Source: Haliclystus octoradiatus
Taxonomy: Eukaryota > Cnidaria > Staurozoa > Stauromedusae > Haliclystidae
Assembly: GCA_916610825.1 (NCBI GenBank)
Contig: OU744451.1
Location: 9,119,441 to 9,183,440, forward strand
Reading direction: 5' to 3'
DNA: 64,000 bases
Shown: one piece after another, positions 23,262-50,833 of the stretch
How the letters are laid out: every line of letters begins with the position of its first letter
Numbering within the stretch: position 1 is the stretch's first letter
Notes under the pieces: model-generated
The model's database searches: none
The model's input: only the letters and a program-made list of their open reading frames with translations
What the model was told of the DNA's origin: nothing
Program-made: the position numbers and the translations under genes

Positions 23262-23560
23262 AAAGTAAAGTAATGTAGACGGTGTCGCCCTACCGAAGGC
23301 ACCAGTACCACTCCTCTATTTCTAGATGAGTGACTTTTTTCGCTGAGAGCATTGATTTTAAACGCTCTTTGTTGATCTCAACCGTGATACTGCAGATCAA
23401 TTTCAACATATTTCATGGCAGATAGGTCTTGATGCGCCGCAGCTACTCACAATGCAATTCCCTCTGGACCATTCCATCCGCCATCCTCAGATGGTACTCA
23501 TTTGATGTTTCAGATAAAGTCAAGGCTGAGTTGACCTTAGGGGAATTTGAACCACGGTCA
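23262..23560 (-). repeat. SINE-like dispersed repeat, copy 3 (long copy)
   Basis: Nearly the same as 39867-40175. On the minus strand it opens near CCGTGGTTCAAATTCC, a box B-like string. It continues with AAGGTCAACTCAGCCTTGAC and GAGTACCATCTGAGGATGGC, and ends CGGTAGGGCGACACCGTC. The pol III-like box suggests a SINE; box A was not confirmed. Confidence 0.7.
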
Positions 23561-26500
23561 TATAGGGCATAAGTAAAGTACTAACTCAGTTGAGGTATAT
23601 AGGGTCACATCAAAAGCATACAATAAAGGGTTAATTGTTAACTCTCAGATACCTGCATATTTCCACTACCTCCGTTGCTATTACCATGCTATTACATTTT
23701 TAAAAATGATTTAGTAACAAAAACATTTGTAAATATATTTGATGGGCATTTTAATTCAGAATAGTATATGCACGTTATGGCGATAGTGGGCATTTCGTCT
23801 TTCTTTCAATTATCCATATAACATATATATATTTGAAGTACTTTTCAGGAGCGACAAAAATAATTCAGTTCTGACGTATCAAACATTCTCTATTCAGAAC
23901 GTCTTTGTTTGCGTTGGAAGAATAATTTAGTTCCAATACTCTACCAACTGCGTTGGTACCAATTTCAGGAGGTTGTAGAATACTTTTTGTCCAGCATATT
24001 GATCGCACTCAAATGTTAAACGCTTATAATTGAGTTACAGATATACAATATTTTTTTTAATTTGGATACATATTTGTAATTACCGTAACTTTCAATGTTT
24101 TTCTTTGAGGCCTCTGAAGATTCCCAATTTTCCTGATTTCGCATTTTTCTTTTCGAAAGTATTTTTTCAATGTTAAACACCGGCACTATTACATTTACTT
24201 TTGAACGAATATCAGTACTACAAATCACGTGACTATAGCGAAAGAATTGTGTCATGATGTAACAATTAATGCAATAGCTGTTATGTAACTTACAGATTCT
24301 TCATTGATCTTAATATGTCAAGTTACACATGGTCATCACTTAGCCCCAAGCATCCATCCTTTGGAATAATAATCGGATATTATTAATCTTAATCTTAATC
24401 CTAATCTCAAATAGTGTAATTGACGTTTAATCTAATCAGAGTGACGGATTGATTCTGTGTAGCATAATATATTTACCGCGTAGAACAACGACTAACATAT
24501 TCATTGAACATTATGTTTTGAAGAAGTTTATAAATTAATTAAACAACATATCATCTATACAACTTGTCCAAACATAGAATCGTATATTTAATATTTCTCA
24601 CTTATTTTTACTGAAAAGTATCAGGAGCTGAAATGAGCTCAACGGTGCAACAATATCAAAAACTAGCCTCATTCCATAACAGTCATGGAAATTACTCGTC
24701 AGCAGAAAGAAAGCTGGACTTGAACCAATCAACATGAAGCCATGCTTTGCCAAATCTGTCTTGTATTATTCTATAGAAAGGAAATCTAAATTTAGAATTC
24801 CTGACAGTTTGGTTATTTAACTGATTAATTATGTTCTTTTAGCAGTCTACGGTGTAACCACTTATTCATAAAAAATCTCACTGCATAATCTCAGTTTCAT
24901 GCTCAATTATACTTCCATAACAAATTTCTATTTAACAGTCTTGAAATCGTGCTTCAAATAGTTTTATTGTTTTACAGAGATACCTTAATAGATAAGTTAT
25001 ATCTGTGTTATAGTGAGGCATGACATATAGATAACCACATACGACAATCCCTCTTATATCTTATATTAACTGTTGAATAACTTCAATTCAATAATCTTTA
25101 CCTATTTTACTTGAAGTATGCAAAATTGAAAATAACATAGATTGCATTGTTAATATATATATAGTTGCAGAAATTTCAGAGTGGCTCGTGGTTTTATTTT
25201 GAATCAGACAGGATGTTGAAGCATTTTGAATTGTAGCATAGTAAAGGAGTTTTATGAATGACGTAATATTCATGAACTTTATTTGAAAATTATTAAAATT
25301 ATTGACCCATCTAGAATATGTCTGATCAATCTATGTCATTTCATTGAGTCTATATCTTCTGATATTAATGGCGATAGAATAAATGCACAATATATGACTT
25401 TAAATGTTGTAATTATTATTTGTAAGCATTATTATCCCTGGTAATCGGGCAGGCAATCTGACCTTAACAGACTGCATCTACTTGCTATCCGATAACACTA
25501 CATAAAATATATCTGATATTGAACGTATTCTAGAGAGGTTAGAGAAACGGACAGAATGAGAGTCAAAAATGAAACATGTTAGATTTACGCTATTTCGAGT
25601 TTCACATCATATAAGATGATCACCAGACGACTTATTTCAACTAGACTACAAAAGTCCATCCGTATCATATATATATGAGCTACTATTTTTTACAGTTGAT
25701 TGATTACTGGTATAAGGAATTACTCATTAATTCTAAATAAAAATAAATCAAATGAAATGAAATATTATACAGTATATATTCTGATCTGTATGCTACATTC
25801 AGTCTACCTCACGTTGCTTTGTATCCGACGTTATGATATACTTAGTTAATCCAATATTACCTAAATAAAAACACCGAAATATCTTGTCACATAGACTTGA
25901 TAAGGGCGGGACATAGCAAAAATTCAAACAGTATGCGAGTACTATTGCGATGATATATATTTTTTAGTAAATCTTCCACCCTTCCTCTTTCCAAACAATA
26001 TGACATAAATCCTGCTTTTACTCGTTGCTGGCATATTACTATACATCTCCATAATATCCTAACAGAGTTTTATATGAGTAACTGTACTACTCATTAAATT
26101 ATACTAATCTTAGATTTCCTTGGGAGATGCAGTATTTATTTTTACTATTTTGAGAACGATTTATCAAAAACAGTAAACAAAAGTATTTAGAGTTTTACAT
26201 GTGCTATTGCGAGATGAGTCAACTCAAAAGGATCGAGGCCAAATTTCATTGACTTGGATCATCCTGTATCTTGAGCCAGTCACCAATTAGGTATTTTCTT
26301 GGGCGGCATGACAGAGCATCCAAATGGTTCCCTTGGGGCACACCATATCGCATCAAATCATTCAAATCGGGGCAACAACCCACCACGTTCTCACTTTCAT
26401 TGTGGTTGGCGACGTGTTTATTCTATCAACTATTATTCTTTAAAGAATCTATTGTTAATTGTTCTTGTTTGGGACCTTTAGAAAAGGCATCACGTCGGAT

Positions 26501-27602: not shown

Positions 27603-30600
27603 ATGAAACTCACTTTACTGATATATATCCTATCCAACTTTTATATATATAAATGCGAAACATTGGAAATAGCGAACGAAGCAAATTCTTTGGGTACTTT
27701 ATCAAAACTTAGACGGCAAAGTAGAGACATTTCATTACGAATTGGTAATAGTGAAAGAGTAGTTGGCGGAGTGCCTGCTAAAGAAAGCCAATTTCCATGG
27801 GTTGTATATTTTCATGCAATTGCAAAAACAAATAATGGAACAATTACAAATTTTTGTGGTGGATCGCTTGTTCATGAAAGGTACGTAGGCTTTTTTATCC
27901 GAAATCATAATGCTCATAATTCATATATCTTTGTGTTAGGAAAGGAAATAGAAATTTTCTTTCGTTTGTTTGTTTTATATAACAAATATTTTGCTGAAAT
28001 GTACAGTAAATGGTCGAAGTTTATACATAAAATGTCACTGTATGTGTTTGTATAGCGCAAATTGCATTAAAACATTGAAATTTTGAAATAATATATTTGA
28101 TGTAAGAATTTCCGTAGATTGATAAGATGATATACTTTTTCAAATTAATTCAATTTTTTTAATATCTCAGCAAAATGTATTTTCCAGAAAAACAAAGTTT
28201 CCATTTCGAATTGATATTAAACGCTACAGAAAGTTTCATATAAAAATGATAGATTGCGTGATTAAATAATGACTGTAATTAAATTATATTGATATTTAAT
28301 TAGCATTTAAAGTATGATTTCAGACATTTAATCGTATAATTACCTTCTAAAGATGTTCCCTATTAATGAAGTGCTATTTATTGCATATCAAATGCCTGAC
28401 TAGATGATAGTTTACATGGTTCGCAACTCGCGTGCCTATATGATATGACACAGCTATACTATTGTGTCAATCTTTTCCTTTGTTACATGCGCTCTTTGAT
28501 TACCTGTTAGATTTTATTTCAAAAGTATAACTCTATACCAAATTTATCATTATAAACTTCTGATAAATACGTACGATCAAATTAATAGATACTATTTTTT
28601 GTTTCAAAACTTTTTAGTTTTTTTCAACAAAATTCAAGTTTCGGGCATCATTTTATATACTCCATAATACCAAAAATCATATCAACAAACTTGATATTAT
28701 TTACTGTCATGTTCGGACCATCTAAAGCCACCCGTAGCTAGCTACCATTAATAAATTAATACTGTAGTGTTGAATAACCTAAATAGCCATTGAATAGCCA
28801 GGCTAAATAGCTTGGAATATATATTTTTCCGAAAGGAAGGAAAAAGTTACCAAAACTGAATTACAATACATAACGGAGAGATGTTTATAAAATATGTTAT
28901 AATTGTATACGCAAATGTATGAACGTTTTTAGATTTAGTCGAATATAACGTCACTCAAATAATCTATATATTATGCAGCTGTATAGAACAAGAAAATCTG
29001 CAAACCATACTTTCCAGTTTTGTCGTTTACAGTTTGAAAGAAATTTAATTTTTATTGTAAATGTTAAATCAATCAGCTTCAATCTTAATCAATTAGTATT
29101 TGGTTTAAATCTTGCTAAAAATTGTAAAAATTAATTGGTTTTAAAAAAATCCGTGGAGATTTCCGAAACGCCGAAATATTTTTTTATGGTGATTATCCGT
29201 TAAAAAGATTGATGATATGTTATGGCCTATTATCTATGGTTTATTCTCATGCATTTATTAACAAAGCGTTATTTAATAATTTGATCCATTTTCAATCGAT
29301 ATTGGATATAATAATTTTGACTCTTTGTCGGTAAAAATATAACAAAAAAAATGTTTGATTTAGGTCTAAAATTTGATTGCTTGCCTGACGGAAAGTCTTT
29401 AAATAGTATTTATTTTTTAAATCAATGAAATCAATATTTACTAGGATAAAATAACAATTTTTGTATGGTTTTATTTTACCGGTCCACACGTTTTATTGAT
29501 ATTCAACACATTTTTCAGGTCTATGATAGATCTATATCTATTTCTTTCTTAGATATGTGGCATCCTAAAAAGTAAACATAAACTTTCCAAAAAATATTTG
29601 TATACTATATTAATCATTATTACAAAGTATAACGACACTCTTTATTCGAATGTTTTGTCTCGATCTTCTTGCAAACAATATATGAATAATGAAATGGCAG
29701 AAAAGGGCAAATTTATGTTATCAGGATGCGATAGAAATTTTGTGTAAATTTATCATACTGAAAAAATGACTTATGGTAATAAAAAATTTTGAATGAAGTT
29801 TTCGGACATTTTTTACAATTCATGTAGGATTGTAAAGTATTAACAAATATGATGATCAATCAACATTATATGACATCAAGACGTCAGCATCATTCGTTGA
29901 ATGAAACCTTTTCGTTCCCGTGGGAAATTTTAGGAATGGCTGAAAAATGAGTTACGGACTTTAGAAATTCAATGTCTTTAACCAGCTTGCTGTCACAAAA
30001 TTCGAGGAAATTTTCATTACTTCCCTTGTCGAGAATGCATTTTTAGACTCGCCTGCGTATTCTCTTCATTGTCTCCGGGCACGAGGACTGAGGATGATGT
30101 AATGGTTTCCCGATTCTAAGTTCCACATCTTCTGGAATCTTTCGGAGTTTCGGGCATTGCTTCGACGTGTTACTGCTTGCCCTTTTTGAAGTTTATTGGA
30201 TTTAGTGAAAATGAATAATTGCTTCCTGGTTTAATCTCTTTACCGTTGAAATTTCCATTTAACAAATGCGAACGTTGATTTTTCACACGGATGCTCTTTA
30301 CATTTGATTTCAAAATCATTTCAAGTTTCTTTCCGTTTTGCCGACTCATTGTTGTTCGATATTTATTTTTATGTAATACTTGAGTTAAATCAATAGATGT
30401 CTTCTACTGTTAAATAAACATAAATACGAGAAAGTTTTATTCAAATTTGATGGCTTTGATTAATTGATTCTCGACAAGGCATGCGAGAGAAATTTAATGC
30501 GTAATTATGATTGAAACATGTTGAATTCCATGTACTCAAGTCAATACAGTACCCTTGAAAAACCTCATACCAAAGTTTATTCCGGTTGATATTAAATCAT

Positions 30601-33600
30601 GTGAAGTATTCAGTACAACAGTAGTACAAGACAAGGGGGAAAAGACTTCATTTATTATCAGAGGATATCAGTACCGACATCAAAACTATGAAAAACATAG
30701 TGAAATGTCATTACGTTTTAATGGCATTTTCAAGGCATTTGAACATTTTTAATTAATCTCGTGAATATGGATGTTTTCATGGTTTTCAAACTATTTCATG
30801 GTTTAAAAAATTGTTATTTTCACTTTTTTACATTTTCATGGTGTTTCACAACACTTTCATGTCATTTTCATGGTTTTGATGTTGATAGTTAATGGCAAAT
30901 GGCAATAGGCTATTTGCTAGGAGTAGAAGGAATTTTTTTTATGGAATTCATTCAGTGGGCGAAGAATTGGAAATCCCAAGAAGCTTCACCACTCTCTTAT
31001 CAGGTCTTATCAGACCAATCAGCGGGCTGAGTACATTGAAAAGCCAGATAGTTGCGGTCGATATCATTTCAGGCGATTGTGCTAGCTTATGAATTTTTCT
31101 TATCATTTTCCACTCAGAAAGGAAGAGATCTGGTAAAATGCTTTTTAATCTTTGAACGTCATGGTTTCTTAATTTGGCTTTATTTTAAATCTAGACTTGA
31201 ACCTATCTTGAACCCCACGAGAGTCCTTGTGAGGTTTATCCTTGAAATTACGCCTTGAAATTACGCAAGGAATGGAGTGAGTTTTTTGAACATAAGCGAA
31301 CAGCGCAGACTATAAAATGCTCCTCTCATTGTTAATGCGAAAATAATTATTTTTAATAAATATAAATTTTATAATATGTAACGTTATAGTGTCGTCCGTG
31401 AAAATCTTGAAAGATTTTATCGATCATCAAAATTTAAAATTTTTCATTGCTGAGCACGACAGCACTCAATTTTGAAAATGACATTTGAACAATATCAAGG
31501 TAGAATTAACTCTGTATAGAAATAACACCTGTCTATAGTGGTCAATTATCTAGATCTTCTAGGTGGCTGTACTACACAGGTATAGCAGCCACCTAGAAGA
31601 TCAATACCAATTATCTGCCGACTGTAATCCATTCCAAGAGGAGACTAATTAACGCGAAAAAATTAATAAGTAATTTAATTAATTATTAATCGCTTGGATT
31701 GGTGAACCAAAAAGTCTGACCAGATTGAGACCCATTAATAATGACATTCCAAACATTAAATGATGACAAATGTCCTCTTATCGCCAGATTTTTTTAATCC
31801 GAAAATTAGAACTGATCAGAGGATATGCCTGGATTTGTAACTCTCTATTGATATATAAAGCTCTCAACGTCTTCTCAATGTTATAATATTTGAACATGAC
31901 TTTTTTTGTTTTAAATGTCAATGCATTCTCTTAATTTCTTTTAGATGGGTACTAACAGCAGCACATTGTCTACCAGAAGGCGATAAGACAACCAAAGTGA
32001 TGGTATATATTGGTAATATATATGCACATGTTAATAAAAGAAAAAAGTCTGAGAAAATAAGAGTGAAAGCCATTTTCATTCATCCAAGATATGCTGGGAG
32101 TGGATTCAAAGGTACGATTAGCCTCTCACGATCAAGAACTCAGAAAATTATATTATTTATAATAGTTATATTGACGTTAAACCTCCCTTCCCTTGCGCCA
32201 GCATAGAGAAAGAATGTAAGCACTGGTTGCAGTGTCGCGGGTAGTTTTTGGGGCCACGAAAACGTACATCATACTGTCAATACCCCCTGATTTGCGGCGA
32301 AAGTGACGAGGCGAAGGCAAGTCGCAACTTCCTCATGGAATATTCATCTCCGTGATATCAAAAAGCAACGTGCCCGTGACATGATAATAGATGAATAAAT
32401 CAATAAATCCGTATTTAATTTATGTACTTGTATGTATCTTCTTCTCCTTTCAAATTATTTCAAATAATTTCAGTATGAACTTCCTGGGCATTAGCGTGTG
32501 TGGCTCCATGTAACAGCATGATTATATATTGCTAAAGAGGAGATAAAATGCAACTATCAATCAAGTATAATATACTAACTACTGAGGACTGACTGACATT
32601 GTCGTAATGCATCACCCAATTACATTTCTCACGTGACACTTGATTGATGTAATGGATGATGATATATAGAAATGATTATAATGATGAACATTGATAAAGA
32701 TTAGAATTTCCGTTTTTACAATATTAATCTTTTCAACATTGTCAACACGTTTTGAAGACTTTCGCCGCAAATATGAATGATATGTTTAGTTTTACCTGTG
32801 TCTTCCGCCATAAAGAAACTTTTTAAATTGAATTAATGGATGATTTTTCTAGCAGGAAAAGGTCTTTTGTCATGCTTACTGTACATATATAGAGTCTTAA
32901 TATTAATTTATTAAACAGAGATAAAGTATATATAGAGATAGGTTTCATTTAAATATTCCTAATCTCAAGATGGAATTAAATGTAATGGTTATATCATAAA
33001 TGATGCCTTGAAAGGACTTGTTTGAAACAGCTAGAAGAAATTGATTTACAAAAACAGTCCTTCGGTATTCAATTATTGTAAATCGTTCTATTAAACTGTC
33101 TGGTGACACACGTGCAAGTGCCAACACTCCAACTATTCTGTCTATACAACGTATACTGGATAAACATGAAGTCATATGATGTAGAACGATTATTGGTAAT
33201 CTACTGGATCATATAATATTGCACACACGATACATTTACGAAAAAGGTCAAGAGTTCTCTGCAAATTTCTAGTCATTTTTGTTGGAAGTTGAACAAGTAT
33301 CGTCGTTTCAGCGTCGTTCATGTGTCATGACCACAATATACAGGTTGACTTTTATACGAAGGAGGTAGATTCCTCCCAGTACAACTAATTCACTTGTTAT
33401 CACTACATACATTTTATGTAATAGTGAGTTAACATCATTTTGACACGGATTGAGTGACCAGTATATAATATATGTATACGGGGTTGCTACTAAAAGGGAT
33501 CATTATAAAGTACATTTTTCCTACATCCCGGGGGACTTCCACAGATCGGCTGTACGGGGACGTACCATTTTTAAGGGGTTTCTTTTCCAGATTTTACGGG

Positions 33601-36600
33601 AAATTTTACGGTGTCAATTTAGAGATTTTCAACATTTTTACAATTTTTTCCTTGTTTTTCTCGTAAAAACATGACATTTTAGGGTCTTCATTCTCGTTTG
33701 CTGTGGAATTTCATCTATTTCCCGAAATACCCCTTCCCCGGGTCTTACATACACTTGATTTTATATTATAACTGTAAATATTTCGTCAATTCCTTTTGAA
33801 AACCATTTCTCCATATAAAAGCAGACCGAAATTGATAGAATTCTCAAATGTAATGGAATAAAATTTGATGAGATTTAAGGTACAGTAGAAGTAAACGCTT
33901 GATAAGTTCTACTGTTTAGTAATCTAAAATCTATACCCCGGGATCTATACACCGCTATATATAACGGTTTCACCACAGTGGTGTACGGATTATAAATTTG
34001 TATGAAATCTATTGTAGCATTATCATCATGTGAGATTGATAAGATTACATAAAACTTATTCATGACTTTGTAATCTTACAAAGCGCATTTGCAGTGAGCG
34101 ATTTACTACATGTTTGTAGCAGAATACGGCGTAATAAATCCACTCAAATAGTCTTTTGGTTTAGTTTAAGCCTCTTACAACTAGATTACGAGTTCAAGTA
34201 TTATCAGTAGTATTAGTTTGTTAAGGTTGAAGAATTTGGACAGTATTTTAACAGCTTAAAAATTGTCCTAGGATTTCTATTTTTAACGGACTATATTCAC
34301 AACTCAAAAAAAAAATGCTAAACCAGGGAAATCTAATTCATGTTGAATGATTGATTTACTGGAAAATCCCAATACTGTAAAACCATGATGATTAAATGAT
34401 CAATTACCCCGGGAGCCTATATACAACATAATAAAAAACTTCAATAATGACAGCAAAATTAAATTAAAAAAGTGAACACAAAGTAACTCGCTATTTTTAA
34501 AATTAAGAGTCTGGTCTAAAAGATGGATCAGTATTCAAAAAATTATCACAAATATTAACAAAATTTAACCCTGATTTAACCAAGGAAGCAGCATGTGGGA
34601 AGAGAACTGCAAAGGATACAAAGCTCTTGTTTTCCGTAGATTAATTCTCTACCCATAGAAAAGGTTTTTCTCTTGCATCAAGTTCACACAGCAGTCTATC
34701 AACCTGTCCAAACGACCTGTCCAAACGACCTGTCCAAACGACCACTTCTCTCGCCTAGATGTTGAAATTGTCAATAGACAATGGTTATAGCAACGTTCTT
34801 CTATTTTGTCTCTTCAGGTGCAGACATTGCCTTGTTATATTTATCACGTTCTTCAAAGCACAAGACAATTCGACCAGCCATGAGTCCTGCTGATGATAAG
34901 CTAATGAAGCCTTTTGCTAGTGCCACAGTAGCAGGGTGGGGCTCAACCACGCCCAGTACCAAGCACTTATCAACGAAATTACGTCACGCAGAGATAAACG
35001 TAAGTAAAAACGTGTATTCTTATTTAAGTCTTTAGTCTTGTCACTATTAAGACAATAATAAGGACTAGATCCTACTTGGACTTCAAGAATTTATCGCTAG
35101 AATTGAATTCATCATTCTCTTGTTAAACCCATAATAAAATTTCTCAAAATATATAATCCAATTCGTACTAACCCCGTCATACAACTCTCTGTAATTATAA
35201 TATACTTTATATAACTTAAACTCAGTATAATATACGGATAACCATTTCGAGTCTTTAATAGCATATTTCAATGTTTTGCAATTTTCATCACTATAAAAAA
35301 AGTATAGAAATTATCTTATCCCTATCAAACTTCAAAATGATCATCGCTTAAATATTTATTTCTTTACATTTTCTTGTGTTTTCAAGACTGTTTCATATTT
35401 TTTTTGTAGATAATTCCACGTGAAAATTGTAACCGTGAAGCATCATTTAATGGTTCTGTTCTTAATGATATGTTTTGTGCTGCTGGTAAAAACAGGGATG
35501 CTTGTTTTAGTGACAGTGGCGGTCCTTTAATGGCAAAATCATCTTGTAATAATGAAGAAGACTCATGGGTCCAAATCGGGGTTGTTTCATGGGGACGAGG
35601 CTGTGCACACCCAAATTATCCAGGTATGTAAATCCATTGAGTGAATGTATGATTGATTGAGTGGCACAATGTGCATGCATTGTACGAGGACCGATGGTTT
35701 AATGGTATATGGTCCCGGGGGGTAACTCCAGCTCTTTAGGGACGGGGAGGTGCCACTCTGGAAAAAGGTAAAGTACCCAGAAGGTTACAAAAATTCTGTT
35801 GATGCTACCCAAAAGGTTCTAGCAGGTTGATTAAGTTTAGGTAAATACACAAAAATGATGCAAATTTTTTCAATAATTCTTGAAAAAGTCAAAAATAGGA
35901 TACCCAAAAGCTCCAAAATTTGAAATCTCATACCCCAAAAGTTTTTTCTCAGCTGGAAAATGGACCCCAAAAAAGTGGCACGTCCCCGTATAGCCGTCCT
36001 AGTGGAGTTACCCCCCGGGTATATGATTCTATCTCCAGCTCAGTTGAATTATTTTGTTATTTCCTTTTTCCGATTGTACACTGACAAAGTCTAGATCGCA
36101 TCATTCTGTACAGAGAATTGAATAACTCTCATTTCTGTTATTGTGTATAGAATCACGGCCGTAGCCATTTGCTCCTGTCTGGGACGTATTTCTAATTCTG
36201 CCCGATAAAACGGGCGTGTCATATGTGCAACTGGGAACTTCAATACTTCAATACTTTTGAATACATTCAAAAGTGCACGATTTTGCAATTTACGTCGCAA
36301 AATTACCGAATTTTTTCAGAAAGATAGTAGTTATAGTGTCTCCCTTATCCCCTACTTAGTGCCCCCTCATCCACCCGTCTTAATAACAACTCTGTTACAC
36401 AAATACAGTATGACAGCAGAAGTGACATCCCTAGTTGAAGTGTATATACATTTTAATTTGTGTGAATTTTGATGGGTTTCTGTTGCGCAACTGATGTTTT
36501 TCTGATAGTTTATTTGTATTTATATGCTAAAGGATGCCAATGTGAGTCAATGTTTGTGACAGTTTGTTGATATAACGAAACATTTGAGTTTAGGGTTGAT

Positions 36601-37130
36601 GTTAAGTGCTACGTATAGTTTTGAAGGTCAACATGACTTAATATCGGTTCACTTTGTCGCACCGCTTAGCCTCACCGAAAAGTCGACGCAACGTATGGCC
36701 AATGTCATACTTTCGGCTGAAATGTTGTTATCCAAACAAAATGTTATTCTAAAAATCTGTTACAAGAGCATTCAACATATATTCATCATCTAGGAGACAA
36801 TTCTCAAAAGGGTACACTCCAGACTGGAACAATATTATTTTGTTTCATTTTGTAACTTTTAGAATAATCATTTTTGTACGTACATGAAAAACAGTCTTTG
36901 ATAAATCAATGGAATCTCAATTTAAAAAGTTACACTTGGAAATAAAACATATAACATCGCCATAGTTCCGAATTTTGGTTCTTGATTTGAATAAACTTAT
37001 ATGCATACATTGATCTCTATCGGAACTGAAGTGTGGCCATTAATTCAACTAATTTTCGTTATTCTATTATTAGGAGTATACGTGAAAGTCGCAGAATATT
37101 CGAATTGGATTTATGACATCATCAATCCTG
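27603..37130 (+). CDS. Secreted trypsin-like serine protease (possible N-terminal part of a longer fusion)
   Basis: Exons 27603-27880, 31945-32111, 34818-34999, 35410-35623 and 37074-37130 agree in phase (2, 1, 0, 1, 1). A signal peptide (residues 1-18, [18 protein letters not shown]) and a short basic propeptide precede the activation site R52|VVGG. The S1 protease domain has WVLTAAHC (H100), ADIALL (D151), FSDSGGPL (S245), VVSWGRGC and [17 protein letters not shown]239, six residues before the serine, predicts cleavage after Arg/Lys. The oxyanion-hole glycine (position 193 in chymotrypsin numbering) is Ser243, which is unusual. There is no stop before the final donor (CCTG|GTGAGT). Reading through that donor would stop at 37172-37174 after 14 extra codons. 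The open question is therefore whether it ends there or splices on to the collagen exons. Confidence 0.88.
30017..30349 (-). pseudogene. Possible processed pseudogene or decayed ORF in protease intron 1
   Basis: On the minus strand an ATG at 30349 opens 59 codons ([20 protein letters not shown]...) to a stop at 30170-30172. The same frame then goes on with only one more stop for about 50 codons, including [19 protein letters not shown], to a final TAA at 30017. Base composition is less A+T-rich than the surrounding intron. A single frame of 111 codons with two internal stops looks like a dead gene copy. The family is not recognised. Confidence 0.35.
30765..30890. repeat. TTTTCATGG-type low-complexity repeat
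   Basis: TTTCATGG or close variants recur about six times in protease intron 1. Confidence 0.5.
31510..31620. repeat. CTGTCTATAGTGGTC repeat with 17-base hairpin
   Basis: ACACCTGTCTATAGTGGTC is followed by GATCTTCTAGGTGGCTG (31553-31569) and its exact inverse (31586-31602). The same opening string recurs at 61866 and 61988. Confidence 0.65.
33527..33743. repeat. GC-ended foldback element, copy 1
   Basis: Ends CCCGGGGGACTTCCAC and ATACCCCTTCCCCGGG. It shares TACGGGGACGT and a TTCCAG stretch with the inverse of the element at 35714-36019. Located in protease intron 2. Confidence 0.55.
34702..34740. repeat. Three tandem 13-base units
   Basis: ACCTGTCCAAACG is repeated three times without change, 78 bases before protease exon 3. 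Confidence 0.9.
35714..36019. repeat. GC-ended foldback element, copy 2
   Basis: Terminal inverted repeats CCCGGGGGGTAACTCCA and TGGAGTTACCCCCCGGG (17 of 17) are flanked by TATATG at 35706-35711 and 36020-36025, a likely target duplication. Located in the last protease intron. Confidence 0.8.
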
Positions 37131-37552
37131 GTGAGTTCTGCGCTATTTGCATACATTGTATATGCGATGCTTAATCCTGGGAATATTCCAGATGAAAGAT
37201 GGCAGCCATTCCCTGTATAGTTGTAATAACTAATAATAATATAATAATAATATTAGTGAGATTGTTCCACACTAGCTCTTAGTATAGTGCTCAATGAAAC
37301 TAATCAGATCATTTAAAGTTTCTTAATCAGTTAAATTTCTAGTTGAAATAAATGGTCTGATGATCACCTTCTGGTGTGAAATTCGAAGTAGCGTGATTCT
37401 AGCATGTTTCATTTTTGAATCTCATTCTAGTTATAAAAACTATACATTTCCTATCCACCCTGTTACGTTTGTCTTGGAATGGTATCGCTTGATCGACATT
37501 CTAAAATTAATATACTTTTTTTACGCAATTATGTTTGTTTGTTTCTATCTAG

Positions 37553-40500
37553 GTCGTCATCATAATGATTTCCATGGTAGTTGTTATTGTTCAAACAAAG
37601 TAAGTAAGATAACAAGTAGCTCAGTAAGTACAAATATTAGTTCGGTTACCAACCTATCCTCTATTTAGAATCTGCTGAGAGGAAGTTCACTGATTAATAG
37701 ATTTTGAATATTTTATTTTATCATGCGATAATAATCACGCATATTGATAATTATTGTCTTTGTAGCTGCCTTTACTTCTTCGTACAACTGTAAACCGACG
37801 TAGGAGAAAGGTATGAATATACATCGTGTATACTCTCTTCATTTTCAACAACATTAATGATATTTTTACTAATAGTAAATCTACATCAGTATAAGTTGTA
37901 CGCTGTACTGTTTCCTCAGTCTCACATTCTGCCTTTCCATCTTAGCCTGGAAAACAACCTCGAAATAAAGATGAGATTATTGAATACAATGTTGCTCCTG
38001 GTCCTGCAGGCCCTAAAGGCGAATCTGGCTCACCAGGACAGGAAGGTCCAGTTGGCCCACCTGGACCAGCCGGCCAAAAGGTAACAATCATCTTTGTATA
38101 ATGCTTATTATGTGTCAACGTGATTATAGCTTTTTGTCAAATTGGTTAAATTAAATAATTATTAATTATAGAGCGTCAATGAATCCATAATTATGCACCA
38201 ATTGAAGAATTCATTCATTCATTCATTTATTTGCCAAAAAATGACAGGCAAGAACAAAGGAAAGTTTGCACCCTCACTAACATGTGGCCTAAGTAATATA
38301 TATAATACATGAATAAGAAGATAATTAATGTGTGATAAATTGATTGTAAATAAGTAATTAATTTAAAGATATTGTTGCAATGATTAACTGATTAACCATA
38401 GCCAAAAATTTTGCAATGTGATAACGTGTTTACTTTTTCGAGTGATGCCTTGAACTCTTTGACAGTCTTAGAATTAACTGCAAAGTCCGATAGTGAGTTC
38501 CACCATGGTATCACTCTGTTGTTAAACATAAATTTCGTAATATTGGTCCTACACATTTGCGTTGAATATAGTTTGTAAGGATGACCACGCATTGTATATT
38601 TGTTTACAAGATATTTACAATTTATCGAATCAAGAGATAAATCAACTAAGTCATGCGTGATTTCTCGACAGAATGCAATGGCATTGCATAACAATTGACT
38701 GCAGTTTTGTAGGATCAACAAATATGATCGAGGAAATAAAGAGACATATATTTTGTAGTGTTTAATTGTTGATATTATTATAGGGAGATGAAGGTCATCC
38801 TGGACAGCGAGGAAGAGCTGGTGCCCCAGGGAAACCTGGATTACCGGGACCTCCTGGAAAACTGGTAAGTGGAGTCGAAATGATTCGATTGGCAAAATTA
38901 TTTGATAATTATATTATAATTCTACTTATTGTATAGTTCAATCGTAGGATTTAATATTATGATATGGATAACAGCAACATGTTTCATATCCTGTGACCAA
39001 CCATCAAACCATGTAGATCCTCGTCAATTTGTTATGAAAGGTATTAATTCAATATTTCATTTTATTTCAAGGTGGGGATTGACGGAGAAAGTTATCCAAC
39101 TTTGGTTGAACTAAAAGGATTAGCTAATGAACTACGAATACTGAGGGAAGAGTTAAAATCAGTGCTGAAGCAAGCTAAGACAGGTAAAACCAACGCCTTT
39201 CTTGTGTTATATATGCTTTCTCCGTTGCCGATATACTCTGAAATAATAAATTCCATATAAAAATGCAGCTCCTGTGTTGGTTTTGGCTTATAAACTGCAT
39301 GCGTAAACTTAAAAAATCGAGAACAGGGACAAAGGCTCAACATCGGGGAACGCTAAATTCATTATACTCACGCCTAAAATTCTAATTGAGGGGATTCGAT
39401 ATCGGACAGCCACCCGTCGGGACTACTGCTAGTGATTCCTAAATCCCGATAAGAAATTGAAACTATGTATATATAGGCAATAATGCACAATGCAAAAATT
39501 TTTCTTTCTTAAAATCTTTCAATCATTTTTGAAGGTATCTAGATTTCAACATATGGTATTATAAAATTATTAACCACATCATTAAATTTATCTATCTGGT
39601 TTGCATTTAATTTGAAAGTAAGCAAGTATAGAGATTATTCAAAAATTTTTTTACATATGAACAATCATGCTAATGACAATGTCAAAAATTAATTTAATAA
39701 CAGAATTTTGCTGACGTGGAATACATTCCCTGATACAAAAATGCCTCCCAGCTCATTAGATGCTTTCAAATACGGTCTTCAAAATGTATACTAATAGCCT
39801 TATTATAGGTCGTTAGGCTGCGCATCTAGAGCTATTTTAAATACTTACCTGTGTCTGCTGGTAAAGTAAAAGTAATGTAGACGGTGTCGTCCTACCGAAG
39901 GCACCCGTACCACTCCTCTATTTCTAGAGGAGTAGCTCTTTTCGCTAAGAGCAATAATTTTAAACGCTCTTTACTGATCTCAGCCGCGACACCGCAGATC
40001 AATTTTAACAGATTTCATGGCAGACAGGTCTCTGTTCGGTTGTCAATGCGCAACGATGCGCCGCAGCTACTCACAATGCAATTCCCTCTGGACCATTCCA
40101 TCCGTCATCCTCAGATGGTACTCATTTGATGTTTTAAATAAAGTCTAGGCTGAGTTGACCTTAGGGGGATTTAAACCCAGTCGATCAGCTATGATCCGGT
40201 CTGAAGTTCGGTTACAACAGATTTCATGGCAGTGGTCTCTACAATGTAATAATTATCGTAATATTGACAAATAAATCAAATCAAATAATGAACAATGATT
40301 TGGAGCCCTCTTTCAAATATGATTTTATAGCCCAAACTTAACGTTCTCTATCTCCATTCCAGGCAAAACAAAAGATTATCCATTACGAAGTTGCAAAGAA
40401 CTTCAATCAGAAACAGAACTACGTCAATCTGGTCGTTATTGGTTACAACCAAATCGATCAGATCCTTTCATTGGTTATTGTGAAATGGAAACAGACGGGG

Positions 40501-42037
40501 GTGGATGGACACTAGTTTATTCATATACATTTACAAATTATAAGAGCTTTCGATCACCAACAAATCTATTAACGCCTCCCCCACCTTGGACGAAGGATCA
40601 TAAGCCACTCACGATACCCCAAGGTATGTTAGAATTCCTGTTTTGGATTGAAGAGTGAATATAATTAGGCCTAGATTTGAAGGGCTAATTTTCATCGAGG
40701 GTGATACTTTACAACAGTTAGATAAAGGCGATGTTAAAGCTCACTAATCCCATGACTGATACTAAATATTTCAGATACTCAGCAGATTCGCTTTGTACAT
40801 ATGGTTATGATAACCCCTGCTACAATGTCCGCCCTAGAAATACTCTGCGTGCTTTTAGATAATTATGTTGCATAAGTACGATTATGATGTTCGTCTTAGA
40901 TCACTCCATCTCTATCTGTTTTGAAGAGTTTCGAATCTTTGAGATTAAGATCCACAGATGATCTGGATAACCTCATGTATAGAACTTGTCAAGTTATCAA
41001 GACTCAACAACTTGATTTCATTTTGAGTTTGGGACGATCAAGAGAAGCTGCAGGATCGAACACTTAAACCCGGTTTTAATTCAAATTCAATTCGAAAAGA
41101 AATAAACGCTTACAATTCACAAGATTCCCACCGCCAGGTTTTTATGCAGTAATGCTTCAAGAGCAGAGTTATTTGACTATAACTACCGTTGACTCGTCCT
41201 GGTTTGAAAGATTAATATAGCTATAGAGGTTAAAAGGATTATCGCTGCATATAGAAATAGGATATATAAACGATGCTCCATAATTATGGAATCAAAGTAG
41301 AATTGATAAATGCGGATCATGTGTTAATAAACTATTACGGTATACGAGTCCACATTACCGGATCGCTTCAGGCGTGGCTTTTTTTTACCCGGGGGCATTT
41401 GGAGTAGTCCACTTGGTTACTATGTACCCGCTAGCTGTCATTCGGCGTCTGGTTTGTTTATATGTTCATATCTTATCATATATTGTACAGTATATGTTAT
41501 TGGACTTTCGTACGGTTGCACTCCTGCATATACGGCAATTATTTTCCTCTGCAGTTGTATTTCGTTTGAAAACGGCATTGCTATTATTACCACGTGGTTA
41601 AAACCTAAATTATCTCTGTTTTTCCAGATCCAAGAACTTTGGGTAGTATTGATTATAGTTATTGGCCATTACTAGGCACTGAATTGCTTGTGAAATCTAA
41701 CATCAACGATTGGATCACGTGTAAATCTGAAAATAATGGACATGGGATGTACCCTGAAGATATTCCTGAAACTGGATCAATCGTTATAAGAATTATATGT
41801 AAACACATTAAAGACATTACAACTAGATGTAAACCAAGTACACCTGATGCTATTTTATGGACTTCAAAAGGTCCCTCGTTATTAGTTTTATCACGAGGTG
41901 TGCATAGAGGCACTTATTATAGATGGGAGGCATCTAGCAATGAAGGTAATTGGCCTGTTCATGATCCATGTGGAACTACAAAGCGTAATCAAAATAAAGA
42001 TGTTAGTGAACCGTATGGTGCCATCTTTATAAGATAA
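37553..42037 (+). CDS. Collagen stalk plus fibrinogen-like C-terminal domain (ficolin-like layout)
   Basis: Exons 37553-37599, 37766-37810, 37946-38080, 38784-38864, 39072-39183, 40363-40623 and 41628-42037 (TAA) join in phase. The first exon needs one base from upstream and accepts the phase of the protease exon ending at 37130. Order: a short Cys pair (SCYCSNK), a basic RRRRK site, and 18 uninterrupted Gly-X-Y triplets over two phase-0 exons. An alpha-helical neck follows (LKGLANELRILREELKSVL), then a head with SCKEL and YCEMETDGGGWTLVYSYTF. The GGGWT block is the start of a fibrinogen-related domain. The rest of the head, ending NWPVHDPCG and EPYGAIFIR, does not match the usual fibrinogen C-terminal half. 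It is likely an extracellular trimeric recognition protein. It is either fused to the protease or a separate gene starting at the ATG at 37360, whose frame is open through a hydrophobic stretch into the first exon. Confidence 0.85.
38392..38760 (-). mobile_element. Non-LTR retrotransposon 3' fragment
   Basis: Minus-strand open frame in the intron between the two collagen exons. It has RGHPYKLYSTQMCRTN and NNRVIPWWNSLSDFAV, the usual end of LINE reverse-transcriptase ORFs. Only the last 100 or so codons remain. Confidence 0.65.
39867..40175 (-). repeat. SINE-like dispersed repeat, copy 4 (long copy)
   Basis: Close match to 23262-23560 over its whole length, including GTAATGTAGACGGTGTCG, CCCTCTGGACCATTCCATCC and GAGTTGACCTTAGGGG. 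Lies in the intron before the fibrinogen-like exon. Confidence 0.75.
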
Positions 42038-43304: not shown

Positions 43305-46300
43305 ATGGCGACCAGTACGTTAGACGAAAAATTTGCGAAGTTTTCTTCTTTTATGCATGAAGTAAGTACTTTAGAAGGTGAAAACTAATGATTTTATATG
43401 TTAATATGTCGATTATGCTACATTCTATTATATTTTCATCGTAATTCCAGGTCAAAGCCATTGAACAAAGAGATTCTGAATTAACAAGCGATAAACAGAT
43501 TGAGCGCCTCACGAAACCTGGCTCAAAATATTTGAATTTAAATCCTTATGAGGTATGCTTTAGTAATTCCATGATAAAATAAACTTTCTATAAAGTGCCC
43601 CTTTGCTAAAATGCATATGAAAAATCAAGTCCAAAGGAAGATAATGCTAAGATATCGTTTTTCATGTCGTAAAATAAAATTGTTAATAGCCTATATATTG
43701 GTTCAATAATCAAATTGTATCATTTGTAGGCTATGTCATTGCTTGAAATACAAATATTTGCTTATTTTGTCTTGTGGTATTCAAATTTACGGCTATTTAA
43801 GTCAACAATGACCAAGAATTATAAACAACAAGAGTTTGAAAAAATTGCAAGCTTCTGTCTAACCATCTAGGCCTAATAATTCAAGTTTTTTAACACACAT
43901 TATCACCGAGGTAAGCTTGAATATTATTCGACTAATGGACAATTTGTCACTCACAGTAGATTCACTCTGAGTTTCAGGCAGTTTTCAATTTTCTGCAATG
44001 TTTATTCGTTAACAGACCGTAGACATCAGACAGCAATGTAATCAACTAAATCGCAGACGTAAATACACAAACAACAGACTTGAAAGTTTCTATGAATTTC
44101 AAGGAACAGAAATTTTATTTTTTGCTTGTCGTCTAACTTCCTACATCTGCTTAATTATCATTTCTGGACGTATAAAAGTGCGATCTTCCAACTTGATTTT
44201 TCATATGCAGAAGTTTACAACTACTTGGGGATAAAATTCTCATCAAACCTGTTTGTATGGGTATCATTTCCAACCTGTTTCCATGCATTTTGAATCAAAA
44301 TAGATGTTGCCCAGAGGGAAGGTTGATACTCCTTTTTGTTGTCATTATCCTTGAAATCTTCTGTCTAGGTTTTAAATCCCAAAGCAATGTTAGCTTTGTG
44401 GCCGACAGAAGTCACCTTATAGATTTAAGGTGAGTAATATATGATGTATGGCTGATTCACGCTTGAAACTTTCTATGGATGATTATGAAATGCATTATTG
44501 GCATCTATAACAAACAACATGAATGTGGTTAAAATGATGGTGTAAGTCAGTCTTTTCTACGAGGGAATGATCTATAATTATTATTAACTGATCTTAGACT
44601 GGTGTATACCAGAAATGTATATTGCATATTGAATTTACGAGTGTATTTATTTGTTATCTATAGGCCTATAGATGTTTATTATCTATCAGGGAGATTTTGA
44701 TGCTTGTGAGAGCGCATTTCTAAGAATTTAAACAAAAACTGTGGCTAAATCACTCAAGATATATTATCGAATAAATTATTGATCACTCTGATAATTTTGT
44801 TTGTGGGACACTCAATAAGTTCAATGTATATCAAATTAGAATTGTGTTTGCAATCAATTCACAAGCTGTTAAACACCACACAAAGTATCATTAGGTTTTC
44901 CTTTTCTCAAATTTTGCTTGAAAACAAGTCAAAAGACACATCGTGTATACCAAATATGGCACTGCATTTCAAATGTACCAGATTTGATATAACAGATCAA
45001 TTTCAATCCAATCTGATCTGAAAGCTAAATCTCAATCCGATGCGAAATCCGTTTGGATAGAACTGGATTCTGGTCAGACTCGCACACCTTTACTCGTCAT
45101 CGACTAATTTTTTGCAGGAGTTGTTTTGTTTGGACCACTCATGTGTCTTTTTAATCTTTTAAATCTTCTTAAATGCTTTAAAACCATCGCTCTAACACTG
45201 TAATAGCACATAGATTTTTTCGTAAATCCTTTTTCTTCGTGCAAAAACAAAATGGGAACTATGAAAATTCAAAACGAGATTTGACTACTGATATCTTGCA
45301 AGCTATGCTATTTCTATTGTTTATGAACAGTGAACCATTGTTAAAAGTACATATTCAAATAAATTTTTAAAAATGAATAAAAATACATCTTTCAACTTTT
45401 TAAAAAAGTTTGTAGTATTGAATTTTGATAACCCAATGAATAAATTTTATTAGAAGTTGCATGGATTATCTGTGAAAGGCATGTAATGGACTTATGCATA
45501 ATACAGTTTCCACACCAAACAATATCAAATCACACAATTGTCAATGTCATTTTCAAGTGAGTGCGTGAGTGAGTTGGGAAATGAGAGTTGCCTGAGGTAT
45601 AAGCAGCTGAAACCTGATTTATATTGGGCATTGGGACCGTAGAGTCAATGAGGTAGAATTTGAAAAAGAATAAGCCAGACTGTAAACGAGAATATGAAGC
45701 AGAGTGGGGCATTATGCAAGGGAATTTCTGTTGGGATGCAATTCCTTATTATGGTCAGAAGTTACACATTTTTTTCTTCTGTTTTTGCAGGTTTTGCAAG
45801 TTTCGCCAGAGTCAACTGAAGATGAAGTCAAAAAGTCATTCAGACGTGTAAGTATTCACTCACTTCTAATTGAATCACTTGAAGTATGATAGGTTCGTAC
45901 AACAGATATGTTTCTGATTCAAGAGTTATCATATTATCTTAATATTTGAAAGAGAGTTTCAAAATCCGTATGTTCATCCATCAGTTCAACATTTTCCAAC
46001 CATTTTTTGTTGTTGTAAATGTTATGTTTGTAAGCGCTGAATGTTAAGCCAGATTATGGCGTAAGTTTTTTTCTATGTTTAGTTTGTCCTTTTTGTATTG
46101 AAATAAAACAAAGCTTCCTTTTACGGGATAATTTTCAATCTCTGAAAATCACCCAGAAGTGCGGTAACTCGTTTCTAGTTATTGATAAAAGTACGAAACA
46201 AGAATTTGTGGTTACATAAAGCCACAGACCAGAACCAGGTAGGCTGTAAAAATGTGTAGGATCCTGGGAACCTTGTACCTGTAAGGCCATAATAAATTTA

Positions 46301-49300
46301 GAGAAGGTTTGAAATGTTATCAGTTCTTTTCATATTCAAAATTAAATTAATTGATAAATTCTTGCTTATTAATTATTTTTAAAATTATTCTTTCATTCTT
46401 TGTGGCTATATATTTATAAAATTATTTGTTGTACAGTGCTGTACCTTTTTATAGTTATATTTACATTTTGGCCATTATTCTTTTACCAAACCCTGAAATT
46501 GATGAAATTATAAAAGTCTGTAATTTCCATCACCTTGTTTCAATGTTTCATACAGGATAACGTGTAAATTATTTTCAAAATTGAATTGCGTTTCAGCTGT
46601 CAATTTTGGTGCATCCAGATAAGAATCAAGGAATGGCTGAGGCAGCACAGAGAGCTTTTGAAGGTAAGCTACTCAAAGATAAGTATGCCTCAATTGGCAG
46701 ATTGCCTTGCTTAACCTATCTGAGTTGTTGTATGCGTCTTTTCTCTCTAAAGTACACTTTGAAACATAATTATTTGTAAATTGTTTTTATTGTCTATTGA
46801 ATAACATTTTACTATATAATCCATACAAATTTTAGATTAGATTTTCGAAAATGGAATTATTTACTGTTACATTTTTAATTGAACGCTGTCAATCAATTTT
46901 GTTTGTACACACCGTCATCATCATCATCATTTATTCAGTATAATTAGAGCTCATTAGATGACCGCTGGGATTACCAGCCGCAGGCACGTTTTGAGAATTA
47001 TAAACTTGCTGCAGACAAGGGTCCAATTAAATATTTTTCCTTTTGGGATTTTAAATTTTTGCTTCTAGAAGGTTTTGCTGTAAACGTTTCCACAGCTTTC
47101 ATATCATAGGGTTTATGGTCTTGAAAATATAACAACGACTGCACGTTTCGACTTTTCCTCCAAAGATTAGAATGCAAATCTTTTTCATATCCTGGAATAC
47201 ATCTATTTCATCCACTTCCTTCTGAATTTATGCTAGCCTTTCAGGACTCTTAATCTTGGAATTCCCCATTTTATCAAACGTTGCTGCAGACACAATTTCA
47301 AGAAATTCACAAATTCCAGCAATTGGAATCAATGTTTTAGATATTTTTGAATTCTGTTAGCTATTCTGCGCATATTTCAATCAATGCTGTTCTCACAAAA
47401 ATGATGTCATTTCTTTAGTCAGTTTTAGCTTAACATTTTGTTGGCACTCTGGAAGGAAAAAATTGATCATCAGAGCAAAATGATGTTTTATAAAAAAGCT
47501 ACTTTTTCAGTGCTAAATTTATGTTCTTCTTGTTCGTTTTACAGCTGTAAGCAATGCCAATAAAAAATTAAAAGATGAGTCAGAATTAAAAAAGTTAAAA
47601 CATATTCTTGAAGAGGCTGAAGCCATGATTACAACACAATTAAAAGAGAAACGAAAACTGGCCAAAAAAGATAATTTAGGTGAAATTGAAGAAGATACTT
47701 ATGCTGAAAAGGTAATAAATATTAGCCTGTAATGATTTTAATATAAAAATAATATTATGATTGGATAGGATAGTTCAGAAGCTGTACTTTGTAATGTGCA
47801 AGTCATTCGCAACTATGACATATAATTTATTATCACTATTCACAGTAATGTAATAACCAGATTATAATATAAAAATCAAATTTCACCGTAATTAATTGGA
47901 TCGTGTTGAGATGTTCCTGTAAACTCGTGCATGGAATCCTTGGAACGGCATTTGAAACCAATTTTCTATGCAATCAATCTAAATGCGCTCTCGGCTCTTA
48001 TAGAGTTGGCACATGTACAGAATTGCATATGAAACAGGCATTAATTACTTTATAAACTTTTGCTGGTCAATGTGTCTGATCAAGCGTGTTCAACTGAACT
48101 TATTACGTTTTCGATTTCAGTATTATAAATTCAGGCGAGCAATTACTGCCAAATTATTTGCTGACTATGAAGTGAAAAGAGTACAGTCGGATGAGAAACA
48201 TATGCGAGACAGGTAAATACAAGTCACAACGCTTCACAATTTAATTACCGGTACAAACAATAGATATGCACTGCAATACTCTGATCATGGTCCGACAAAA
48301 TTTTATACCTTCCGCAAACCTCAACTTCTTAGATCAATGTTTGAGTAATTTTCAAGATATAAAAACGTAAAATCCACGCTTTCTTTTTCATGTGTTTCCA
48401 TTGACTTGCTCCAAGTCTCGTGAGACTCGTGTCCTTTGCTCATTCTGTTGTTTTCCAAAACAAAAGAAACTCATCAAACCATGCAAGATGATGTAAAATA
48501 TTTTGAAGTTGTCCATGGGGTCTTCTCCATTCTAAATTCATTTTTGTAAACATGGCGTTCAAGTTAAATTATCCCATCGAAAACACTGCAATTTTGTTTA
48601 TTAGAATAAATTATTCTATAATATCTAAAGATAGATGTTATTTATTGATAACTCCACGCCATGTGATCATTTTATCTTTTGAATGAGATCAAACAAGCCA
48701 GCAGGGTGCAGAATGCTTCCCAGCACTTACGTCTTACGGTAGCAACAGACATAAATCCCACTTACCAACCATCACATTTCGGCGCATCAAAGTAGGCTGG
48801 AATCGGTGTCAGTCAAGTGTTTCCAATGATTTAGCTTTTATAACCAACATTTTGCCTTGTCCTCCTGGGTATACCTAGCCTTCCGGACTGTGTTGAACCC
48901 TGACTCTTACCAACGATACCTTTGACTATGTGGTCATAGATATCAGCTATTATGAGTATTAATTTCACAGTTTTTATGAAAAATTAATAAGTGATATATG
49001 TAGTATGTATATTTTGCAAGGCAGAAGGCAGTTTATTGTATTCTGTGGCCTAGAAATGAAAACTTACATACTAGGATTGCAGGATACCCACTTAAGTTGG
49101 GGATTCTAGCTATACCGGATAGAAATCGTACTGGAAAAATTACACCATCAAACTAAAAATTATGCCGGATTCATTTTTGGAATAAACTAGCGCAACGAAT
49201 ATTTAGATCGAATCACCTCGATTTCGATAATTCGTACCGCATCAATTTTTACCCCACTCGTAGCAATCAATTTTTACCCAACGCTTGAAGCAGAGTGGGT

Positions 49301-50833
49301 TTTGATTGGCTAGAGAAACTCTGGCATACCGGATTACTTTGGTATAGTGTAATTCATATGCCTAATCGGTATTAAAATCACTACAATCGGATGGCTATCC
49401 AGTATATTGGAATCCCAGCCTAATTCGCTGGTATATCTACTCCAGGAAGAGTTGCCATCCAGTTGAAACACATTTAAGGCAATTTGTTGAAGCTTTCTCT
49501 GCAATTTACTCGATATACATTGACCTGTAAGGTTCAAATCCAGAAATAGTTGTTGTCTCCCACATATGGTGTATAGATGGTGTTAATGTTCAGACACAAG
49601 GTAGTCCCTCCAATCATCGAATTTCCTCCCTTTCTGTCAGTTCTAAAACAAAGAAAGCGCTGATGTAGCTATTTTTTAGTAGGTTTTCAAAGGTTTTCGT
49701 CTGTTTTTGACTGAACCTTACTACATGCATTATATTGCTGTGATTGCAGTATGTGACCTACTCACATCTACAAACATTGTTTTGACTTACAGGAAAAGAG
49801 AACGTGAGAAAGAAATAGACGAAGAGGAAAAAGTGAAATCAGAGAAAGATTTTCAGAAGAAATGGGAGGTAAGTGTATGTTTATTTAAATTTATTACAGT
49901 GAAACCTGTTTGTATAACAGCCAGCCATGAGAAATAGATACATTGACTAGTACCGGTATATGCCGGTGGCCTTTTTATACATGCTTGATTCAATAGAAGA
50001 TACTGCAGTGAATCATGTATATGACAGTCAGCTACTAGAAATAGATACATTGACCATCATATACAGGAAAAACTATTTAATCACTTTTTAACTTTTTATC
50101 AAACCTTGTCAGTATGCCTACAAATCTCTTCTGCTCGGTTGTGATATTATCTCTACCAAGTATCTAAACATTCAGCATGCCCCTTGAAAAAACAGTTCAG
50201 GAGTTCATGAACAGTTCATGAACTCTCACGTATAGTTTATGAACAGTTAATGAACAGTTCATAAACAGTTCATAAACAGTTCATAAACAGTTCATAAAAA
50301 TTTTGGGCCATTTAATGTCCATGAACTGTTCACAAACTCCTGAGCTGTCTTCACAGGGGTAGATACAGGGAAACCTGTATATTATAACAGCTATCTATAA
50401 TGTAGAGAAACTGACTAATATGTGGAGGTAGTTTTTATATAGAGTGTTGATTCAATAGGTATTGTAGTACTATTTTGGACAGTACTAGAGTGACCACAGT
50501 ACACAGGTGGTCGCTGTATAGAGGTGACACTGGCAGTATATATTTTTTTATTTGATAGAGGTTGATTCTATAGAAACTATAACTTTACTACTATGCTAAA
50601 GTGACCACTATACACAGGTGGTCGCTTTATAGAAGTGGTTGTTGTCACAGGTTTTACTGCAACTCTGTGTGGTTTAAATTGAGTTTCTATTTTCTATTTT
50701 CAATGTTGGCTTTTAGGAAGCTCGAACTGGACGAGTTGATAGTTGGCGATCATTTCAAACAAACAATAAGAAGAAAAAGAAAGGAGCGAAAGCCTTTAAA
50801 CCACCAAAAGATAGACCAGAGAGTAGAAGTTGA
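43305..50833 (+). CDS. DNAJC8: DnaJ homolog subfamily C member 8
   Basis: Eight exons encode 244 residues (human is of similar length): 43305-43361, 43451-43552, 45791-45847, 46597-46663, 47545-47711, 48121-48212, 49793-49868 and 50717-50833. All phases agree. The start is chosen at MATSTLDEKFAKFSSFMHE, in an AAAAATGG context. The J domain runs from about LNPYEVLQVSPESTEDEV to residue 115, with HPD at 78-80 (LVHPDKNQ). After it come a charged helix (FRRAITAKLFADYEVKRVQ), an Arg/Glu-rich helix and the conserved tail GRVDSWRSFQTN, then a lysine-rich end. In animals this J protein works with Hsp70 and is linked to spliceosome and SR-protein-kinase functions in the nucleus. Only the splitting of the J domain across four exons differs from a plain single-exon layout. 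Confidence 0.96.
47221..47290. repeat. GCTAGCCTTCCGGGACT-type dispersed repeat
   Basis: ATGCTAGCCTTTCAGGACTC followed by GGAATTCCCCATTTTATC. The same string order is seen at 54072-54120 and inverted at 58811 and 59178. Confidence 0.5.
49895..50070. repeat. Tandem repeat related to the ACAGTGAAACCTGT family
   Basis: Two diverged units of about 110 bases share AGAAATAGATACATTGAC. They lie in the last DNAJC8 intron. Confidence 0.5.
50180..50359. repeat. GTTCATGAAC inverted-repeat element with internal 11-base tandem array
   Basis: Ends CCCCTTGAAAAAACAGTTCA and GAGCTGTCTTCACAGGGG. The centre has an expanded run of ACAGTTCATAA units, each 11 bases long (about 50242-50298). In the last DNAJC8 intron. 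Confidence 0.8.
50360..50670. repeat. GTGACCAC...ACACAGGTGGTCGCT tandem repeat
   Basis: Two clear units carry GTGACCAC followed by TACACAGGTGGTCGCT (near 50490 and 50600), each preceded by a TTGATTC.ATAG stretch. Related strings are at 6140, 31530 and 61866. Ends near the last DNAJC8 exon. Confidence 0.6.

Follow-up and report, generated by a model that had tools for sequence, protein, structure and literature searches.

A putative single gene joining a trypsin-type protease, a collagen stalk and a fibrinogen-like head in the staurozoan Haliclystus octoradiatus

Are a trypsin-type protease and a collagen stalk with a fibrinogen-like head, encoded one behind the other on the forward strand of Haliclystus octoradiatus, the products of two neighboring genes or parts of a single one? 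The locus occupies positions 27603–42037 of the 64,000-nt stretch analyzed here (the window; GenBank assembly GCA_916610825.1, contig OU744451.1, positions 9,119,441–9,183,440), and an earlier note on this DNA had proposed a single polypeptide. Judging from the sequence, we favor one predicted gene that joins all three parts, with a probability of roughly two in three. Splice signals and the search for a second 5′ end make this the better supported reading, which is not to say that it is proven.

The junction between exons 5 and 6

The 12-exon model of the earlier note could be rebuilt from the window with all coordinates and phases and with GT-AG borders at 11 of 11 introns. As had been claimed, it comprises 663 codons (1989 nt) that stay in phase to the TAA at 42035–42037, which is included in the count; the 662 encoded residues are not interrupted by any stop. 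Exons 1–5 encode the protease and exons 8–12 the stalk, neck and head, and the two halves are connected by a single splice, 37130/37553 (a slash marks a splice or cleavage point throughout).

Exon 5 (37074–37130) ends at the donor CTG/GTGAGT, at 37131, and both this donor and the acceptor at 37553 have phase 1, in agreement with the earlier description. Scored with a generic metazoan matrix, the donor reaches 7.15, the highest value among the model's 11. Only nine of the 6591 GT sites on both strands of the window, itself included, score as high (0.07/kb/strand), so that ∼0.003 such donors are expected in the 44 nt that separate it from the read-through stop. The acceptor at 37553, with a score of 3.79, is alone in exceeding 2 across 37141–37668.

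We further examined how exon 5 can be linked in frame to exon 8, where the collagen stalk begins. At the thresholds used there are two such links, both passing through exon 6 (37553–37599, 47 nt). The better one combines exons 6 and 7, and the other omits exon 7 (37766–37810), which is 45 nt long, has phase 0 at either end and can be skipped without a change of frame. Among 1000 dinucleotide shuffles of 37131–37945, 37 contained any link and none contained one as good as exons 6+7; among 274 overlapping control segments taken elsewhere in the window, some of which may contain real exons, the corresponding counts were 17 and one. This rarity argues that exons 6 and 7 are genuine splice units; by itself it is no proof that exon 5 is their partner. 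Because an in-frame TAG stands ahead of both exon 7 and exon 8, translation of the collagen part must depend on splicing from an exon further upstream.

That all later exons remain in phase had been offered as evidence of fusion, an argument that we reject because exons 6–12 would agree with one another in a separate gene too. Fusion is therefore tested by the phase of one junction alone, which would match by chance in about one case in three if exons 6–12 formed a gene of their own.

The disputed gap (37131–37552) is intron 5 if there is one gene, and intergenic or promoter sequence if there are two. Two of its features had been cited in favor of two genes, and both carry little weight. Reading through donor 37131 does meet a stop after 14 codons (TAA, 37172–37174), yet at the other ten donors the read-through frame stays open for anything from 1 codon to 50 or more (translations were cut at 50), which makes the early stop ordinary. 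The AATAAA at 37347–37352 is likewise present, but this hexamer occurs 105 times on the forward strand of the 64 kb, or 0.7 times expected per 422-bp gap, and it lies within a copy of an interspersed repeat (37338–37428, forward strand). The inverted partner of this copy, at 25553–25645, is 85% identical over 93 nt and has AATAAG at the corresponding place. We accordingly discard both signals, the stop as a sign of two genes and the hexamer as a gene end. By codon scoring, a weak measure here, trained on this gene's own exons, the 14-codon tail resembles open intron stretches.

A separate downstream gene would also need a 5′ end. Within the gap we found no phase-1 first exon running from an ATG to a donor with a length of at least 30 nt and a donor score of at least 0. 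The starts listed there, ATG 37360 and ATG 37531, both run unspliced into exon 6, into which the frame is open from 37327; ATG 37360 lies in the repeat copy, and the hydrophobic start at ATG 37531 (MFVCFYLG) is no more than short. A collagen-lectin secreted as a separate protein would thus probably have to begin inside the protease gene, at the cost of more assumptions.

Several observations weigh against the joined gene. A TATAAAA at 37432, a motif expected 0.19 times in a stretch of 422 bp, counts for a promoter in the gap. Beyond the model's stop, neither AATAAA nor ATTAAA occurs from 42037 until 43578, so either such hexamers mark gene ends unreliably here or the model's end is misplaced. 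In the leave-out codon run, exons 1, 5, 6 and 7 all score negative, and exons 6+7 together fall between coding and intron sequence (0.065 of intron stretches score as high and 0.043 of coding stretches as low). The protease introns and the gap (27881–37552) hold three hydrophobic phase-1 candidates for a first exon, with starts at 34781, 36472 and 37001, against ∼0.7 expected in 9.7 kb from the window rate of 0.07/kb/strand (9 donors). Adjacent gene pairs on one strand are commoner than a fusion of this kind, and S1 domains usually stand at the C-terminus. Finally, Gly193 of the oxyanion hole (GDSGG), nearly invariant in such enzymes, is replaced by Ser243 (CFSDSGG, versus CQGDSGG in tryptase), and a serine at this position may weaken catalysis.

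Alternative readings of the locus

The alternative that survives best, though unlikely, is a pair of tandem genes, with a plain secreted trypsin ending at the TAA at 37172–37174 and a collagen-lectin whose first exon lies within the protease introns. The excess of first-exon candidates speaks for it, as do the AATAAA at 37347 and the TATAAAA at 37432. One candidate in intron 4 (36472–36541) would contribute 23 residues with a hydrophobic core and join exon 6 in phase 1, a phase in which leader exons commonly end. Of the other two, one ends where exon 3 starts and one extends into exon 5, so that this candidate alone is independent of those exons. Two tandem genes would moreover leave the strong donor at 37131 unused and would require the intron-like tail beyond it to be translated.

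We consider it very unlikely that the second gene begins at ATG 37360, continues straight into exon 6 and encodes a collagen-lectin of the type II membrane class that is shed at the RRRRK site of exon 7 in the manner of gliomedin or ectodysplasin. The frame open from 37327 into exon 6 would allow this, the ATG is followed by the hydrophobic segment LIDILKLIYFFYAIMFVCFYLG (10-residue mean of 2.53 among the first 35 residues), and the RRRR motif precedes the collagen. In contrast, the ATG itself and the codons up to ∼37428 derive from the repeat, and pyrimidine tracts ahead of acceptors encode F, L, I and Y in any case. The 64-codon frame scores –18.7, a value reached by 64% of 3000 open intron stretches, whereas a proportion of 0.000 of 3000 sampled coding stretches scored as low, in a test that penalizes membrane segments. 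The TATAAAA at 37432 falls after ATG 37360 and before ATG 37531.

The most hydrophobic candidate listed for the protease region starts at ATG 37001 in intron 4 (37001–37130), a possible internal start of a membrane-anchored collagen-lectin. One locus might then yield alternative products, with exon 5 serving in the membrane anchor of a collagen-lectin expressed from an intron-4 promoter and an upstream promoter yielding the free protease or the fusion. The frame from ATG 37001 is open into exon 5, has a mean hydropathy of 3.5 over 10 residues and uses the model's strongest donor; against this, exon 5 is clearly the C-terminal exon of an S1 domain, and the hydrophobic part is supplied by the acceptor tract that closes intron 4, which leaves such an arrangement very improbable. 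Least probable of all is a wrong link, in which exons 6 and 7 are unreal and the true joining exons have been missed: both exons are short and have intermediate coding scores, but none of the 1000 shuffles and one of the 274 overlapping control segments gave an equal link, and the only two links found at the thresholds used both pass through exon 6.

Domains of the predicted chain and a possible mechanism

All three domain calls made earlier hold, with the reservation that the fibrinogen-like head is matched in its first part only. The protease begins in exon 1 (27603–27880) with the start codon, a putative hydrophobic leader called by eye, a propeptide, the activation site SER/VVGG (Arg/Val-Val-Gly-Gly; ER/VVGG at 51) and the start of the S1 domain. 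This domain continues through exon 2 (31945–32111), exon 3 (34818–34999) and exon 4 (35410–35623), which supply the catalytic residues His100, Asp151 and Ser245, respectively, as aligned to tryptase; exon 4 also encodes Asp239, at the trypsin-specificity position 189, and the Ser243 mentioned above, and exon 5 encodes the final helix. Pfam Trypsin (PF00089) covers residues 53–293 over its entire profile (1–220 of 220; 188.1 bits, cut-off 20.6; E 2.5e-55), so that the S1 profile is already complete 7 residues ahead of the junction, and Trypsin_2 matches below the Pfam threshold. Among the best 60 of the 425 distinct solved-structure sequences that match the protease at ≤1e-20, the nearest are tryptases, TMPRSS11D and coagulation or plasma proteases. 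Cys255 of the trypsin domain has no obvious partner and could pair with the CYC of the linker.

This linker comprises exon 6, with a CYC motif, and exon 7, with the polybasic RRRRK, whose RRRR (residues 326–329) is the only R-X-[KR]-R site of the chain and lies between protease and stalk. The stalk, encoded by exons 8 (37946–38080) and 9 (38784–38864), consists of 18 Gly-X-Y triplets (residues 349–402) and matches Pfam Collagen (PF01391) at residues 349–401 with 37.1 bits (cut-off 27.2; E 2.7e-9). COLFI reaches 24.5 bits, below its cut-off of 26.2. Exon 10 (39072–39183) encodes a neck with a heptad pattern, the best 21 residues of which are hydrophobic at every a and d position, as in 52 of 5000 shuffles.

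The head is encoded by exon 11 (40363–40623), which provides its N-terminal portion of fibrinogen type, and exon 12 (41628–42037), which provides the remainder and the TAA. Only the first ∼45–55 of its 223 residues match a fibrinogen-type domain: Pfam Fibrinogen_C aligns to residues 448–491 with 24.2 bits (cut-off 22) and covers only positions 3–46 of its 221-position profile. The solved structures tell the same story, with all matches listed (the best 60 of 65) falling within residues 3–57 of the head and none of the Pfam or structural matches listed reaching exon 12. The best relatives among them are the serum lectin 7e1e (E 3.6e-8), which we take to be from lamprey, and XEEL (4wmo; E 8e-6); fibrinogen gamma and angiopoietin-like proteins rank behind such intelectin-type lectins, and the listed ficolin chains reach only E 0.04–0.1. 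A ficolin-like head is therefore too specific a description. The head appears nearest to intelectin-type lectins, although by sequence comparison the listed matches do not extend along the whole lectin as homology to intelectins would, and the chain, with a collagen-like region as in ficolins, is not a proven ficolin, because most of the head matches nothing. A search of the head against prokaryotic and viral contigs gave 7 and 15 pattern matches, of which tblastn confirmed none, a result that is uninformative about animals. No paralogue emerged within the window: below E 0.2, a tblastn search with the model recovered the model's own exons only.

If the single-gene model holds, the chain would be secreted in the order leader and propeptide, S1 zymogen, linker with CYC and RRRRK, collagen stalk, coiled-coil-like neck and fibrinogen/intelectin-type head. 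Neck and collagen may trimerize three chains and so bring three zymogens together, and binding of the heads to a multivalent surface could cluster the trimers. We propose trans-activation between neighbors, because the enzyme should cut after Arg or Lys and its own activation site is Ser-Glu-Arg/Val-Val. A convertase or the enzyme itself might then cut RRRR/K and release the protease from the stalk, and a free protease could alternatively arise from unspliced exon 5 through retention of intron 5, with the stop at 37172. Taken as a whole, a lectin-pathway initiator contained in one gene, with surface-triggered mutual activation of zymogens, self-release at RRRRK and a free protease from intron-5 retention, is a tentative proposal that we hold to be possible rather than probable. 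Recognition, trimerization, activation and release would all be encoded in one chain.

Surroundings and comparison with known systems

Repeats and other coding sequences surround the locus. A repeat family built on TTCATGAACAGTTCATGAAC occupies 17339–21215 and 50181–50359, with seven direct 42-nt copies in one family and further inverted pairs. A repeat of ∼300 nt has copies at 23267–23553 and 39869–40177, the latter in intron 10, with blocks 89% and 95% identical, and a weaker copy at 3834–3931. Intron 8 harbors a 173-codon open frame on the reverse strand (38392–38913) that presumably resembles the C-terminal part of a non-LTR retrotransposon reverse transcriptase. Further away we observed an Rh/ammonium-transporter exon (17821–17994; Pfam Ammonium_transp, E 8.6e-9), Cupin_8 exons at 52041–55481 (E 3.2e-7 at 52041–52337; 3.3e-4, below the cut-off, at 55314–55481) and an acidic-rich open frame of 379 codons (9504–10640) for which Pfam gave nothing at E ≤ 0.01. 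The downstream gene at 43305–46663 (MATSTLDEKFAKFSSFMHEV), which we take to be DNAJC8, includes an exon that matches DnaJ below threshold (17.5 bits, cut-off 27.8). Rfam gave no match in the window at gathering thresholds, and ARAGORN, run with the bacterial code, found no tRNA.

The predicted chain shares parts with several known proteins. Intelectins, XEEL and 7e1e are, among the matches listed, the solved structures closest to the opening 50-odd residues of the head, but these matches (the best 60 of 65) stop by residue 57 of 223, and we know of no intelectin that carries collagen or a protease. Collectins have the same order of collagen, coiled-coil neck and head; their head is a C-type lectin, and they have no protease. 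An S1 domain away from the C-terminus has precedents in ovochymase and polyserase-3; in contrast to the present chain, the additional domains of polyserases, ovochymase and other S1 proteins that continue beyond a protease domain are further S1 or CUB domains, not collagen or fibrinogen-like ones.

Ficolins work with separate MASPs, and ficolins, MBLs and MASPs appear as separate proteins in a 2024 survey of complement components (PMC11312191). The present locus resembles that system in combining a collagen stalk and a fibrinogen-type head with an S1 protease in the same functional unit. It differs in that the protease would lie within the chain, N-terminal of the stalk, and in that the head matches Fibrinogen_C over 44 residues only. 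CUB, EGF and CCP are absent from the five Pfam families listed at E ≤ 1 for the 662 residues of the model. By the tests made, the predicted protein is thus not a MASP, as the order CUB-EGF-CUB-CCP-CCP ahead of the protease in MASP, C1r and C1s is lacking.

Recognition and proteolysis in one polypeptide, the feature stressed in the earlier note, is not new in itself. Horseshoe-crab Factor C, described as a zymogen that senses lipopolysaccharide (PMC10581989), carries a C-type lectin domain and CCPs together with an S1 protease in one polypeptide and thus likewise combines a recognition domain with an S1 zymogen (PMC10090249); the domains named in that source are C-type lectin, LCCL, CCP and a C-terminal protease, with collagen not among them. 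A chain of S1, collagen and fibrinogen-like parts did not appear in the accessible portion of the literature searched, in which subscription journals are sparsely covered; we regard the chain as a new combination of parts that are themselves known. If true, this would be a one-component, clustering-activated protease, testable as a single recombinant protein, and it would shed light on the origin of the cooperation between collagen-lectin and protease modules in animals. The lectin pathway assigns recognition to one set of proteins and proteolysis to another, and the two need to meet; the joined gene, if true, would be a second evolutionary solution.

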